From positions 640,601-704,600 of the forward strand of contig NW_001799066.1 in NCBI RefSeq assembly GCF_000165425.1: 64,000 bases of DNA, in the 5' to 3' direction. The translations under genes were made by a program, and so were the position numbers. Below the pieces are notes generated by a model, which had not been told where the DNA came from, searched no databases, and saw only the letters and a program-made list of their open reading frames with translations. Of this stretch, positions 14,912-22,282 are shown piece by piece. Source of the DNA: Paramecium tetraurelia. Taxonomy: Eukaryota; Ciliophora; Oligohymenophorea; Peniculida; Parameciidae. Each line of letters starts with the position of its first letter. The stretch's first letter is position 1.

Positions 14912-17900
14912 TCAAACTAGTTCTATTGATTCCGGTTTTCGAACATAGATTTAAAAATCATAAAATCTCTCAATTGCCAAATCAAATAAAAATAGCATAA
15001 ATGTTAAAGCTAGTGCTAAATAGAGTTGTGGTCTAGAATATAGAATGAAATATATACGAGGCTAGATATCTATAGAAGTTAAATGATGGAGACAATTCAT
15101 GGTCATTCACCATAATCAATATTAGCCAATAAACAAGAATTGATAGTACGATGAAAAATATGGTGAAGTTATAATTAGTATAAGTAAAAGTGAAGATCTT
15201 AAGGTTAACAAGAATAATGACTATTCCGTAAATGAATACTCCATCTTCAAAAAATTCCATAGTCATACCATCATCCATGTTTTAGTTCTCTGTAGAAAAT
15301 GTGCAGACTAGAAATATCATCAAGCCTTGAACCATTCCATTAAAAACCCAGAGCCAAAACTTAATGATTGTAAAAATCGGTTATTATCTAAATTAAACAT
15401 ATACATCTGGTTTATCCTCCAGCAAATTATGCGAGGTTTTACTCCATTGCAAATATTCTGAAGAAGGATGCATTTCATCAAAGAGAGCATAGAGCACCTA
15501 AGGGAGAGCAGCAAAAACTGTGTTAAACAATGAAGATAACCACTGATCGTATAAGTATTACCCACTGAAACCATTGAGAAATCCAAACCAAAAGTAGGGA
15601 GTGATGAACACCTAGTTCTTAAAAAATATGTATAGAATTGTGAGTGCATTTCTTCTTGAACACTCAACCCCATAATAAAACATTAATCGCTTAAGATGTT
15701 TGAATTCTTGGATTGCAAAGTCAGCGGCTCTGGCAGCTTGTGTTCCTTCAACTCCTTAAATTCCCACTCCAACATGAGCCTATCGACATATGATCAAATT
15801 TACCTCATTTATCATAGAGACATCATTAGCTCCATCTCCTATAGCCAAAGTATAAGCCTTGGGGAGATTCTCTTTAACCAAAGCTACAACTTATTGTTTT
15901 TGTTTTGGAGACACTCTAGCCACTATGACTACTTTAGCAAAGAAAGCTCTCTTGATTAGCATTGATTTAAGTTGTGGATTCTCTAACATTACTGTTAATG
16001 CCTATCCACTAATTACCAATGCAATATTAGCTGATTCATTGCAATAGTGCAAAAACACCTCTTCTATACTTCCAACTGTAATTTCAGTAACTACTTAGAG
16101 CATATCCTTGCTGTCAATGAGATTACATGAATATCCTATCGAAATAGCAGTTTCAACTTTATCACCAGTTAGAACCCAAACTTTAATCCCTGCAGACTTT
16201 AAATCTGAAATAGTTTATCCTACATCATCTGCTAACAAGTCTTCAACAGCTGTAATTCCTAAGAACTCCAAATTCAATTCAAGTTTCTTTTGTAAATTAT
16301 TCATCATCTCTTCATCTTTCTCCTCTTATGCCTTTTTATATCTATAAATTTAAAAAAAATGATACTCTGCTAAATATATGTCCATTTGACTTTAAGTAAA
16401 AGTTTTTCTTCCCAACATTAATGTTCTGTATCCTTGAATTGCGAATTGATGAATTATGTGTTAATGTTTGCATTCTCCTATTAATTCAAGTAATACTTCA
16501 TCAGCGCCTTTGCAAAATAAAACATATTCATTTCCTGTTTTGACCACAATGGTCATTCTCTTTTTTTCACTGCTGAAATCAAAACTCATCACTCTGTGGA
16601 ATTGAGTTTTGTTTATGGTTAGATGATTATTATTATCGATGCCTTAAAATAAATACCCTTTTTATTCACAATATTCTAATATTGCTAATTCATCAGGTGA
16701 AGATCCTATCAATTTATTTTTTGATTTTACAACAGAATGACATAAACTCATGCACAATAATGCTTCTTTTTCATTTAAAGCAAATAGTTCTCTAAATTAC
16801 ATAGAATTTTTAGTTAATGTACCTGTTTTATCAGTGAAAACAATATTGATTTCTCCTAATTATTCAATCAAATTAGATTGATGCGATTTTGAATTTGGCA
16901 TTACTTTGTCTGACTCCAACATCTTAGCTTAACCAAACTTTACCAATTCCACATTCACTACCAGAGATATTGGTATGAAGTATGAAAGCAATGAAAACCA
17001 TAATCCAAAATCTATGAATACATCATCTCTAGTAAGTCCCAAATAAGTATAATTAAGATGATTGTTTGTCCATATGAATTCATATATAGATGACATCAGA
17101 CAAAATAATACCAAACTGATTGATATAGAAATGATACAGATTCTCATATACTATTCTAATCTACTTCTTTTCGTCCTTTCTTGAGAGCAATTCAACATAA
17201 TTTTACAGTTCATGCCACTGTAAATACACAAACCTATTATCCACTCTGTATTTTTTAGCACACAACCTCTTTCAATAAAATTACCATAATTTAATGAATC
17301 CACTTAAGAATTACTAATTTGATAGGTTCCTGATAGTTTATATAATATTGGGTTCTTCTAATCGTATACAAACTTTACGTTGTTATTTTTCTCCTTGTGA
17401 TTAATTACTATATAAATACAAAGTTTATTGCATTATCGATATGGTACCTTTATTATAAATCATAGATTGAATATTTTTATTTTAAATTTGTCTCACCATC
17501 AATTTACTTTGTCTCCACATATGCTATACCTCCTTAATAACTAGATGAGAGTATCAAGATATCGCATGGAATACTTTCATTTTCCATAATCAAGATAATG
17601 TCAGCTTAATAGATATCCTTCCAATTGCATTATATAAACTAATTTTCAAAGTATTTATGTGATTTACGATTGTTCTCTTCTTGATCAGATTTATATCTAT
17701 TTTTAATTAGAGTTCTAACCTTGAATATTCTTCGATGGCATCTTTCAAAATGCTTATACTCATCATCATTGCCAATGGCCCATAAATAGTTGGAACACCA
17801 TTTGTATAAGAAGTTGCAGGAATTATCTATAATATGCCGATGACAATGAAATAAATATTAGCAGGTTACGTAATTTACTTAATAAAAGCATACGGAAGAA

Positions 17901-18024
17901 AAGTAAACCAGGTGGTCTTCATTGTTGTAATAATGTTTGGTTTATTCTTCATCGGAGTGTCATCTGGTAAGATAATGTTGTCTGTCTACGAAATCTATTC
18001 ATTTATTTAGAAGTAACTATTCAT
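14912..18024 (-). CDS. P4-type ATPase (phospholipid flippase)
   Basis: About 1,010 residues. P4 ATPases translocate phospholipids from the outer to the cytosolic leaflet. The N-terminus has the family block [20 protein letters not shown] and then [11 protein letters not shown]; the actuator region is [12 protein letters not shown]. The phosphorylation site is FTDKTGTLT, followed by [10 protein letters not shown] and CKGAD. The hinge is [12 protein letters not shown]...AHVGVG, followed by [18 protein letters not shown]. About ten membrane segments include [11 protein letters not shown] and the last, [16 protein letters not shown]. Seen introns include 23 nt near 17718, 24 nt inside the GDGAND block and 25 nt near the end; at least one more is needed for an exact frame. 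The ATG at 18024 precedes EQISQTDN. A Cdc50 partner gene is not present in this window. Confidence 0.93.
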
Positions 18025-18136
18025 TGAATGAAATAATATTTTCTACAAATATATTATATATGTTCTTTTCTTAATTCATATAATACAATATTAAGAAATA
18101 ACTTTTTAACATAAATAATTGATTAAAATTTAATTG

Positions 18137-19476
18137 TCAATCTTAATTTGTGGCACTTTTGTCATCATCATCAATAACTCCATCAACTATTCCAGAATCT
18201 TTAGATAGAATCTCATTCCTTATAGATTCATCAATTTTTATATTAACACTAGAAGGATCAAATTGTTTCTCTTATTCATCCTATTCATTAACAGCTTCAT
18301 TAACTTCATTAACATCGTTATTGTTATCTTCCTACTAATTAACATTCTAATTCTCAATAACTGCATTATCACCTTAATCCGATTATTCTTGTTTATTTTC
18401 CTCATTTTGAACATTTTCTTAGGTGGTTTTAGCTATAGTATTATTTGCTGTTTGGATGGATTCAATTATCTTTTGAATTCCTGGTATTTATTTTGGATTA
18501 TACATATGGATCTTATGCTTTAGAGACTCTTATAATTTTGATCTCTTTAATTTTTGGAATTAGTCCATGTCTAAAGTGAATTGATGAAGCTATTTAATAT
18601 CTTCCACAAGTTCAGATGGTATCACAGTAAGATGTTTTAATTCCAAAATATGAAAGTTATATTCTGATCCCAAAAACAGAAATTTAGCTTCAAAATGGAT
18701 TGGTTTACCCTTTTCCAACTTCTAAAATGTTTCAATTTAATATTAAGAGTCCCTTACACCAACGATAATATCAGGCAAATCTTCAGTTGATTCAGTTGGA
18801 TCCATCTTTAAATACACCCAATAATTGAAACTGAAATTTGGATCATGATTAGGTTTTGTTTGAATAAAATCACTAAAATTAATTTTGTTTATCATACCCT
18901 TTCCATGAAACTATTTTATCCTTAAAATAGGTTTCAAATTGATGTCTTGCTTTCAAACCATTATCAATAAATTAAAATTTGCCACAAAATTATAAGAAAT
19001 CAACCCACGTTTTGTTCGAATAGATATTTGCTTCAATTTATGGTTGCTCCTTCTCTGTAAAATATTCAAAGTAAAAAAACAAACAAACTATGATCGTCAA
19101 TAAAACCAAAGCATATTTTCTAGATACTACTACAATGCAATTGCCAAATCTAAATTATAGCACTTAATCGTTGATATTTGGTAATTAAAAGTATTTTCTT
19201 TTTTCTAATTCTTGATTACAATAGTAGCATCTCTTTATAATCATCTTGACATTTATTTATTTTATTTACTTTTGTTGATTGAAACACCAATGGGATTATA
19301 AATATGCACCAAATTCCGAAATAAAATAAGGAAACAAAGGAAATTATAAATGAAGCTGGAGATGGCACTTATTCTAAAATACTTTCCCTAGCTGCACCAC
19401 AATTAGGACAAACTGGTTGTGTTGAATTAACTGCTGTCTCAGATTGCTCTTCATTCTCTGTCTTTGAAATTAACAT
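18137..19476 (-). CDS. LITAF-like membrane zinc ribbon fused to a wolframin-type C-terminal domain
   Basis: A 429-residue product; two introns (25 nt each) give an exact frame. Residues about 20-75 look like a LITAF domain: CPNCGA, a hydrophobic segment (FIISFVSLFYFGIWCIFIIP), then RCYYCNQ, i.e. two CxxC knuckles around a membrane insertion. A second hydrophobic segment follows (YALVLLTIIVCLFFYFEYF). Residues about 130-290 match the C-terminal luminal domain of wolframin (WFS1): IVSWKGDFI, then DIIVGVRDSQYQIETF and KGKPIHFEAKFLF, ending LELKHLTVI. The tail is acidic and disordered (VIDDDDKSATNQD). Wolframin is an ER calcium-homeostasis protein; LITAF proteins act in endolysosomal sorting. The combination suggests an ER or endolysosomal membrane factor. 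The first intron uses an AAG acceptor. Confidence 0.65.
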
Positions 19477-19659: not shown

Positions 19660-22282
19660 TCAATAATCCTTATCCCAATTAGGATCACGAGCTTTTTCAG
19701 GCTTGTAAACATTCTAAGCAGTGGCAAGATCATTCTAGTCTACTAATTACACTGTACTTTAATTTCTTCGGTAACCAATTTACCAACCTGGATAGCTTTT
19801 TATATATCTTTTTCACTATGTAATTTGTTTTTGGGTGGCAAATAAGGAGGTTTTAACTCTCTGTTAATGAGAAGATCCTAAATTATACATTCCAATTTAC
19901 ATAATCAAATCTTTCGAAAAAAGTGTTGTTTTTTAAACTAGCATAAGATGATCCTAGTCTGAGCTCTGGAGTTTTACTCAGCAATTACTCAATCAATTTC
20001 TTGGCTTTTCTATCTTTCAATACTGAGGGAAATGTTAACTATTTCTTTTAAATTTCCTCGTATATTTCATAACTAATAAAGGATTCATAAACAAATATAC
20101 GGGTCATCAGCATCTTCAGCATATGGAACATTTCCACACATAAATTCATACAAACAAATTCCTATGGACCATAGATCAACTGAGTATGTGTATCCTTTAC
20201 CAGTTAAAATTTCTGGGGCCATATAATGAGGAGTTCCGATAATAGTGTATGTTCTACCATTTTTACTCTTTAAATTCTTAGCTGTTCCTAAATCAATCAG
20301 TTTCATGAACCCCTAATATTTATGGTTATTGAAAATACTTTTTCATCAATCATGATATTCTCTGGTTTAATATCCCTATATATGATGTTATTCAAGTGTA
20401 AATATTCCATGCACAAAATCAAAGATCCGATATAGAATTGAGAATCATAAGTATTAAGCAACCCAATGTCTCTGATTACATCGAAAAGTTCCATTCCTCT
20501 GATATATTCTTCCAAGAAATATATATAAGTAGTGTCCCTGAAACTTCTAGCAAAGTGCATTATTAGTGGAAAGTTAACAGTTTCCAAGGCTATCTTTTCT
20601 TAGGCCAAATGTTTTTCAAGATTTTATTCAATTATTTGAGCCTTCGAGATACATTTTAAAGCATATATCTTTTTATCCATTTTGTTATGCACCAAATAAA
20701 CATTACCAAATTGTCCCTAGCCTAATTTCTTCACATGAATCAATTAATCCAATTAAAAATGCTTAAAAACATCCTATTTTTGACCTTCCTCCTTTTTTAT
20801 AAACCTATCATGAGCTTTTTCATTCTTAGCAAATATTTGCTCTAAGGATCCTCCAATAATCTCAAAGAATTATTTAAATGTTATTGTTGCTATCATTCCT
20901 TCATCCTTCATTACAACTGGCTCTCCCAATTTAACATTTTCTCCTTGATCTAAAAATTTATCTCCAAACATTTATCCCTTCTCTAAAATTTCCTTTCCAT
21001 ACCTTACTGACCCTTACAAGACAATAATTATCTCTCTACAAGCTTAACCTTTCTCTATGATTACTTCTTCACTTTTTTTTTGCGTCTATTGCATATTGCT
21101 CACAATTCTTTCCACTTACAATTTTGTCAGTTTGCTAAGCACAACATGTCTTTCAAATGCCCATCGCTGAAGATTACTGTACATAATCAACTGTATCTTG
21201 TCTCCCAAAATTCTAGTTAAATCATCTCTTGCTAAAGCTAAAACTGTCGCATCCTCTTTAATTGCTTTTGCAGTGGCCCCCCTTACTGAATTCTATTATA
21301 ATGCTTATTCTCCCAAAGAATCCCCTGCCCTCATTATTCTAAGTTCTTTTCCTCCTCTTGATATCTATATTTCTCCCTTTTTAATAATAAAGAATGAGTC
21401 AGCCTGATCTCCTTCATTAACTATAATCTCTCCAGCTTTAAAATTTAAATTTATTAATGCTGATGGAATTGCTGCTTTTTAATCATCAGTTAAAGATTCT
21501 ATTTGTAATATGTTAAATTACCAAAAAACGGCACTTTATTTATGAATTCCTTATTCTAATCATAATCCTTTTATGAAATTGATTCAATTGCTTTTCTTAC
21601 AGTATTTCTATCAATTGCCCAGAATGCACAATCTAAAAATGTAATACTTTTTACCTCCTACTGCCTTGACGGTAGCGGATCTTGGTGCATTATATAATAA
21701 GGCCAGCTCTCCGAAGGCTTCACCACTTTTTAAAGTTTTTTTTAATTCATTATTGATGATAATTTAGCACTATCCACGCTCAATCAGAAAGTATGAACTT
21801 GCCTTATCTCCCTATTTAAAAACCATTTCACCATCATGAACTGTGCAATAAAACATTTTATCAATTACTTTCACTCTTAACTAATAAAATTATTTATATA
21901 CTTGTCTTCTGGTTGTAATTACCCAAATATAAAGCTATTTCCAAAAGCATTCAAAAGCAATTAAAAATCAAATGGACTTTTCACTTTCTCTTATTTTTGC
22001 ACATTCTCATAAATTACTTCTTGATCGATAACTGCAGCTATTTTTCCCATCTTCTTTTGCTCTTTTCTTTTAGGCTAAGTTGTATAGAATTTTAATCAAT
22101 ACTTCGTTCTCTTATTTTGCTTAATCAATTGATTATGCTGGTTCTTCCTATTTCTCAGGTGCTTGAGTCTTCACCTCATCAGGTTTTGGGGGATGAACTT
22201 ATTAAATAGGAGGAGGTTAGGATGTGTTCACTTCTATATCATTTTTATCATTAATTGGACTTTACCGACAAATGTTACCCAT
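19660..22282 (-). CDS. cGMP-dependent protein kinase (PKG), N-myristoylated
   Basis: About 840 residues. It starts MGNICRQSP, a myristoylation signal like that of apicomplexan PKG. A basic stretch KRKEQKKMGKIAA precedes several cyclic-nucleotide-binding domains. One phosphate-binding cassette is perfect (GEAFGELALLYNAPRSATVK); the next is divergent (GDSLGEQALQQNSVRGATAK), and a third, more degenerate domain follows (GDKFLDQGENVKLGEPVV). The kinase domain has [34 protein letters not shown] (DFG replaced by DLG, as in PKGs), GTPHYMAPE and VDLWSIG. The C-terminus ends PEKARDPNWDKDY. There are several tiny introns, including 28 nt near 22110. In ciliates PKG is linked to ciliary beat and secretion. 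The multi-CNB layout resembles alveolate PKGs rather than animal PKG. Confidence 0.92.

Follow-up and report, generated by a model that had tools for sequence, protein, structure and literature searches.

A Paramecium gene joining a LITAF-like zinc ribbon to a probable distant relative of the wolframin lumenal domain

Does a gene of the ciliate Paramecium tetraurelia join a LITAF-like membrane zinc ribbon and the C-terminal OB-like domain of wolframin in one protein? Wolframin (WFS1) is an animal protein, and its loss causes Wolfram syndrome. The initial annotation proposed such a fusion at one locus of the window, the 64,000-nucleotide stretch of contig NW_001799066.1 analysed here (positions below are those of the window), and held that no described protein has this combination. 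None is reported in the open-licence PMC literature searched, and the fusion is a new combination of known modules.

Gene structure and paralogs

The gene occupies 18137..19476 on the minus strand, exactly the interval originally annotated, with an ATG at 19476 and a TGA ending at 18137. Splicing and translation, together with paralog alignment, give two introns and a protein of 429 amino acids; the ciliate code was used, in which TAA and TAG encode glutamine and TGA is the only stop. At the level of sequence the gene is confirmed as real. The description of it as one continuous gene holds only after splicing. Translation of the window reveals not a single open frame but a coding sequence of three exons in three different frames, separated in genomic DNA by two 25-nt introns. 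The genetic code, the very small introns and the base composition all fit Paramecium.

Exon 1 (19270..19476, minus strand; residues 1-69) encodes a short acidic tail (TENEEQSE), CPNC and the first hydrophobic segment, as seen from splicing and hydropathy. It is followed by intron 1 (19245..19269, minus strand; 25 nt, phase 0, GTAAATAAAATAAATAAATGTCAAG), which has counterparts of 26 and 25 nt at the same position in the paralogs. Exon 2 (18898..19244, minus strand; residues 70-185, the last codon being split), delimited by splicing and paralog alignment, contains CYYC, a linker, the second hydrophobic helix and TWVDFLQFCG...KIVSWKG. Intron 2 (18873..18897, minus strand; 25 nt, phase 2, GTATGATAAACAAAATTAATTTTAG) is likewise found at the same position in the paralogs, with 25 and 24 nt. 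From splicing and translation, exon 3 (18137..18872, minus strand) encodes the remainder of the OB-like domain and an acidic Q/N-rich C-terminal tail. This low-complexity tail (residues 311-429; 18140..18496, minus strand) is poorly conserved in the alignment of three proteins and occupies the place of the C-terminal hydrophobic helix of wolframin. All the elements from which the fusion had been proposed (CPNC, a hydrophobic segment, CYYC, a second hydrophobic segment, VSWKG, DIIVGVRDSQY and LELKHLTVI) lie within one spliced protein.

When the domain and the exon-2 region were used as genome queries, two further copies emerged, on contig 121 (C121, locus L036) and contig 2 (C2, locus L037), and no fusion genes beyond these three. 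One additional weak match, C191, was taken as chance (28% identity, E 0.49). The introns of C121 and C2 are 24 to 26 nt long and lie at both intron positions of the window gene, and the spliced proteins can be aligned end to end, with identities to the window protein of 81% (C121) and 56% (C2). The architecture is kept in both paralogs. Given the shared intron positions and end-to-end alignment of the three proteins, the domain order is no chance join of neighbouring frames.

Selection was assessed over residues 18-310, which span the three modules and exclude the acidic tail. Between the window and C121 copies, dN and dS were 0.025 and 0.64 for the ribbon, 0.064 and 1.30 for the linker and helix, and 0.071 and 0.57 for the lumenal part. 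Between the window and C2 copies dN was 0.14 to 0.28, and dS, near saturation, was at least 1.7 or not computable. As dN is far below dS in all three modules, residues 18-310 have been kept by selection.

Intron 2 of C2 is 24 nt, against 25 nt in the window and C121 genes. Since this length is a multiple of three and there is no in-frame TGA, retention of the intron would add eight residues and leave the frame intact.

Next to the fusion gene on its downstream side lies a gene (17210-18048, minus strand) that by eye resembles a P4-ATPase (lipid flippase), and a similar sequence is also found downstream of the C121 copy. With a flippase-like neighbour after both, the window gene and C121 look like duplication partners. 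LITAF has been reported to bind PE, which is a flippase substrate; the tie between this and the neighbouring gene is probably coincidence. Upstream of the fusion gene, a frame at 20085-20306 (minus strand) reads by eye as part of a protein kinase domain.

The LITAF zinc ribbon

The ribbon, with its membrane insertion, comprises residues 18-85 (19197..19425, minus strand) and is interrupted by intron 1. PF10601 (zf-LITAF-like) matches these residues over profile positions 3-69 of 70 with 49.6 bits, against a cut-off of 23.8 (E 4.5e-13), and the LITAF plan first read by eye is thereby upheld. Two CxxC pairs, C23/C26 and C75/C78, flank hydrophobic residues 40-68, and their cysteines are invariant in all three copies. 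On this profile match and these motifs, the presence of a LITAF zinc ribbon in the fusion protein is certain.

LITAF domains are abundant in this genome: PF10601 matched 84 stretches, some of which are exon fragments of one gene, and contig 172 carries five matches within 3.5 kb (291650-295115). Among the best-scoring 30 of these 84 stretches, the frame ends at most 15 residues past the second CxxC of the ribbon in 28 (for L009, L016, L027 and L030 the tail was read by eye, the script having picked an earlier CxxC). The tails of L023 and L028, also among the best-scoring 30, are 136 and 118 residues long; by eye they are alike and do not resemble the OB domain.

With LITAF/SIMPLE and CDIP1, the PF10601 proteins, the fusion protein shares a zinc ribbon whose two CxxC pairs are split by a hydrophobic segment. 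It differs from them in carrying the ribbon near its N-terminus, with a second helix and about 300 more residues behind it. LITAF proteins are described as usually having a proline-rich N-terminus and the LITAF domain last (Ho et al., PMC5142333). The fusion protein departs from this canonical architecture, its ribbon being N-terminal with no proline-rich tail, and inspection of its N-terminal tail by eye revealed no PPxY or PSAP motif. The ciliate N-terminal tails carry a diacidic motif (E-N-E or D-N-D) comparable to E-N-E in WFS1, although motifs this short are common and carry little weight.

The C-terminal domain and wolframin

The candidate wolframin-like lumenal OB domain comprises residues 141-269 (18620..19031, minus strand) and is interrupted by intron 2; the evidence for it comes from grafts and phmmer. 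No Pfam family passes its cut-off over the C-terminal domain, and the ribbon is the sole above-cut-off family in the protein. The two wolframin families, PF19913 (WCOB) and PF20053 (WC-rich), match none of the three proteins at E values up to 10. A search of the genome with each of these models also gave no match; as it misses the fusion gene too, it cannot show that wolframin is absent. Matches below threshold were found for the window domain to Sigma54_activ_2 (E 0.052) and DUF4909 (E 0.19), and for C2 to DUF4839 (E 0.076, 13.6 bits, profile 19-103 of 123). The last covers residues 26-107 of the 165-residue C2 domain query, an OB-like stretch, and could be either chance or a lead toward another OB relative. 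A PDB sequence search gave no match with the C-terminal domain or with an approximate human WFS1 segment, and with the profile gave four weak matches, the best to V-ATPase subunit S1 (E 0.42). AlphaFold, run on exon 3 alone with no alignment, gave a mean pLDDT of 37.8, too low for a usable model. Viral and prokaryotic contigs each yielded 59 pattern stretches, none of which was confirmed by tblastn.

The query and graft host was human WFS1 651-890. Its reference residues agree with published variants in 30 of 30 cases; W666, Q667, Q668, G670, A671, C673 and P675 are presumed. In phmmer this segment scored 8.9 bits against C2 (E 4.5e-5 in one comparison), with both blocks in order, a score reached by none of 1000 shuffles and by none of 1083 open-frame segments taken from this genome. 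The window copy scored 1.4 bits (reached by 20 of 1000 shuffles and 12 of 1083 segments) and the C121 copy -0.1 bits (36 of 1000 and 30 of 1083). A profile of the three sequences gave 3.7 bits on WFS1, which 27 of the 1083 control segments equalled. For the three proteins 692, 678 and 634 of the 1000 shuffles gave a reported score, the rest being counted as below, and the control segments were six-frame open-frame pieces of the window and the retrieved loci, coding or not, 690 of which scored. Ungapped identity to WFS1 is 9 of 50 residues for the window protein and 10 of 50 for C2. Profile comparison, put forward at the outset as a check of the wolframin domain, gave a low value: hhalign with the three-sequence profile returned a probability of 6.8% (E 0.0054, single comparison). 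On these direct tests alone, the case for wolframin in the sequence is weak to moderate.

Because local profile searches penalise short stretches heavily at entry, the ciliate segments were placed in register inside human WFS1 and the change in Pfam score was followed for WC-rich and WCOB, a readout of our own design rather than a standard membership criterion. The unmodified human segment scores 124.4 bits with WC-rich and 116.7 bits with WCOB. When ciliate residues 142-191 replaced human 659-708, WC-rich scores were 76.8, 78.5 and 78.1 bits for the three proteins, compared with 55.9 to 58.4 for six shuffled grafts, 59.5 for a reversed graft and 63.9 to 70.5 for eight grafts of nucleic-acid OB domains (PF01336) from the same genome, aligned on their first strand. 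The ciliate grafts therefore stand about 20 bits over shuffles and 6 or more over the best of eight OB grafts. The OB controls align only from WC-rich profile positions 26-36 onward, whereas the ciliate segments align from position 1. Replacing the first half alone (human 659-682; two copies) gave 111.6 and 113.3 bits, against 103.6 and 102.7 for two shuffles, a gain of 8 to 11 bits; the second half gave 92.7 and 92.6 against 70.2 and 68.5. Shifting a graft out of register by two residues still gave 71.8 bits in WC-rich, since the model realigns it.

In WCOB, ciliate residues 201-269 in place of human 769-846 scored 42.0, 42.1 and 48.6 bits, against 30.4 to 36.8 for six shuffles. In a shorter context the window and C2 grafts (C121 left out) scored 43.2 and 49.9, against 30.8 to 41.2 for eight OB grafts. 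These gains are 9 to 16 bits over shuffles and 2 to 9 over the best OB graft, the smallest being that of the window graft, whose 43.2 bits exceed the best OB control (41.2) by just 2. Graft contexts were 240 residues for WC-rich and 231 for WCOB with three copies, 130 for the reversed, half and OB grafts in WC-rich, and 147 to 153 for OB grafts in WCOB; the effect of context is taken as 1 to 3 bits, judging by how far the baseline of the shuffles (55.9-58.4) lies from that of the reversed graft (59.5). Overall, the in-register fit beats 12 of 12 shuffled, the one reversed and 16 of 16 OB-fold grafts (eight per model), although some of the eight OB controls may run into introns and near-identical pairs among them leave fewer than eight independent cases. 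From these comparisons, roughly a third to a half of the WC-rich gain is the common OB pattern. The remainder points to wolframin in particular, as does the WCOB gain with less certainty.

The likeness extends to the order of features. Residues 148-157, T-W-V-D-F-L-Q-F-C-G (18981..19010, minus strand), match WFS1 665-674 without gaps; the human letters, T-W-Q-Q-Y-G-A-L-C-G, were in part checked against published variants. Together with the strand that follows, the ungapped pattern shared with wolframin is T/S-W-x2-[FY]-x2-[FL]-C-G-x23-V-x-W-x-G. The wolframin lumenal region and the ciliate proteins have in common a membrane helix, a linker, the W/C-G motif, 23 residues and the V-x-W-x-G strand, followed by D-[IV]-[IV], L-x2-G-x2-I-x-F, LGS and ELK. 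In human WFS1 the last helix before the lumenal region presumably ends near residue 650. Ciliate T/S148, F152, L/F155, G157, W183 and G185 correspond to WFS1 T665, Y669, L672, G674, W700 and G702, all of which carry listed variants. A sequon at N146 lies three residues ahead of the W in the window and C121 proteins and is missing from C2; that of human WFS1, N661, lies five residues ahead of the corresponding W.

Other parts of wolframin are missing. The ciliate proteins lack its C-terminal hydrophobic helix and five of its six cysteines, and have a short loop where wolframin has a cysteine-rich one. After the second helix only C156 (human C673) of the wolframin cysteines is present, in all three proteins, the identity of the conserved six being assumed here. 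Conservation of six lumenal cysteines in wolframin is described in PMC7016017. In the AlphaFold model of wolframin discussed in PMC8387240, strand 1 of the OB fold and an extended loop come from the cysteine-rich region, so a relative could drop the loop and keep the strand; in the ciliate proteins strand 1 is kept and the loop is short. Compared with full-length wolframin, Pfam and hydropathy reveal no Sel1-like repeats, EF-hand or multi-spanning part in the 429-residue protein, which has two hydrophobic regions only.

The C-terminal domain is likely to be an OB fold and is probably a distant homolog of wolframin WC-rich/WCOB. As first annotated, the wolframin domain survives in part: grafts beat the shuffled, reversed and OB controls in both models, but Pfam is silent at E ≤ 10, the hhalign probability is 6.8% and the hallmark cysteines are missing. 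The same observations would be accounted for if the domain were an OB fold of another or undescribed family, its likeness reflecting a pattern that OB domains share (strand 1 with V-x-W/V-x-G, then L-x2-G-x2-I-x-F ahead of strand 4) and not any special tie to wolframin. We consider this rather unlikely, although it is the stronger of the two competitors. Nucleic-acid OB domains of the same genome share the generic strand pattern, and both wolframin models credit them in part: in WC-rich they score 4 to 11 bits more than the reversed graft of equal length, and in WCOB one control reaches 41.2 bits. The failure of direct searches to find wolframin, the absence of its cysteines and the fact that the best sub-threshold Pfam match of C2 is DUF4839 over the OB-like stretch (E 0.076) all agree with a different OB family. 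However, the likeness reaches upstream of the OB strand, where T/S-W-x2-[FY]-x2-[FL]-C-G alone is worth 8 to 11 bits over shuffles. None of the eight OB controls aligns to this part of WC-rich, and no Pfam family of any kind is above its cut-off over the domain.

It is very unlikely that the region is not an OB fold at all, but a ciliate-specific domain added to a LITAF protein, its resemblance to wolframin being chance. Chance would be in keeping with an ungapped identity of 9 of 50, the low hhalign probability, the 12 of 1083 genome segments that score as well as the window protein, and the fact that the profile found nothing among PDB sequences with E below 0.42. It would not readily produce grafts from three paralogs that beat 12 of 12 shuffles (six per segment) in two separate Pfam models and in the right order.

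Topology, proposed role and origin

The orientation of the protein is a separate question. The second hydrophobic helix, at about residues 113-131 (19059..19115, minus strand), is by Kyte-Doolittle hydropathy and charge count probably a true transmembrane segment that would leave the C-terminus lumenal. Net charge in the window and C121 proteins is +3 before this helix and -1 or -2 after it, a pattern that favours a cytosolic ribbon and a lumenal OB domain. We infer this arrangement, which is that of the initial annotation; the charges of the window and C121 proteins fit it, and those of C2 (0 before, -1 after) give no clear preference. Alternatively, both hydrophobic segments may be shallow, in which case the OB domain too would face the cytosol and the protein would be a cytosolic scaffold, as other LITAF proteins are. 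Human LITAF is described in PMC5095921 as a zinc-stabilised monotopic endosomal protein with both ends cytosolic, and CDIP1 likewise has both termini cytosolic (PMC5095921); a long acidic Q/N-rich tail would also be unusual in the lumen. An entirely cytosolic protein nevertheless seems unlikely, given that the second helix is long and hydrophobic, with the charge difference noted above in two copies, and is missing from the 28 of the best-scoring 30 LITAF loci that end shortly after the ribbon.

We are moderately inclined to the whole reading, in which the protein may cross the membrane once and act as an adaptor, its LITAF ribbon lying in the cytosol and its wolframin-like OB domain binding a partner in the lumen. 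Confidence in it is slightly lowered by the DUF4839 match of C2 and the uneven charge count. As one of three paralogous ciliate single-pass membrane proteins, it would hold the LITAF ribbon on the cytosolic face, anchored by a shallow hydrophobic insertion. The second hydrophobic helix would cross the membrane, and a short linker would lead into the lumenal wolframin-type OB-fold domain. By analogy with the WFS1 lumenal segment this domain would bind cargo or a partner protein. The ribbon, on the cytosolic side, would attach to the lipid surface of Golgi or endosomal membranes and link the complex to trafficking. The protein would thus be a compact, minimal sorting adaptor, with partner binding inside and membrane and coat coupling outside. 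The suggested cargo-adaptor role draws on work on human WFS1 and LITAF. In PMC8632972 the lumenal segment of WFS1 is described as binding proinsulin and other vesicular cargo, and diacidic motifs of its cytosolic tail as binding SEC24.

Kinship with wolframin, if it holds, is of real interest because Schaffer et al. (2020, PMC7016017) describe wolframin as a protein unique to metazoans whose origins have yet to be traced. The same source describes its cysteine-rich segment as one that could not be unified with any known domain. It is possible, and we suggest it tentatively, that the lumenal wolframin module is older than the divergence of animals and ciliates, or was transferred between the two, and that its ciliate version, mounted on a LITAF anchor, is a small cargo receptor. 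If this is true, wolframin would have arisen by recombination of an older helix-plus-OB unit, and the disulfide-rich loop would have been added later in animals. A non-animal relative without the cysteines would then be an outgroup for the disease domain and would reveal its old core, for which the candidates are T665, Y669, L672, G674, W700 and G702, identical or like in kind in the ciliate proteins. In a protein of about 430 residues, a lumenal domain of wolframin type could also be tested jointly with a trafficking module on the cytosolic side.
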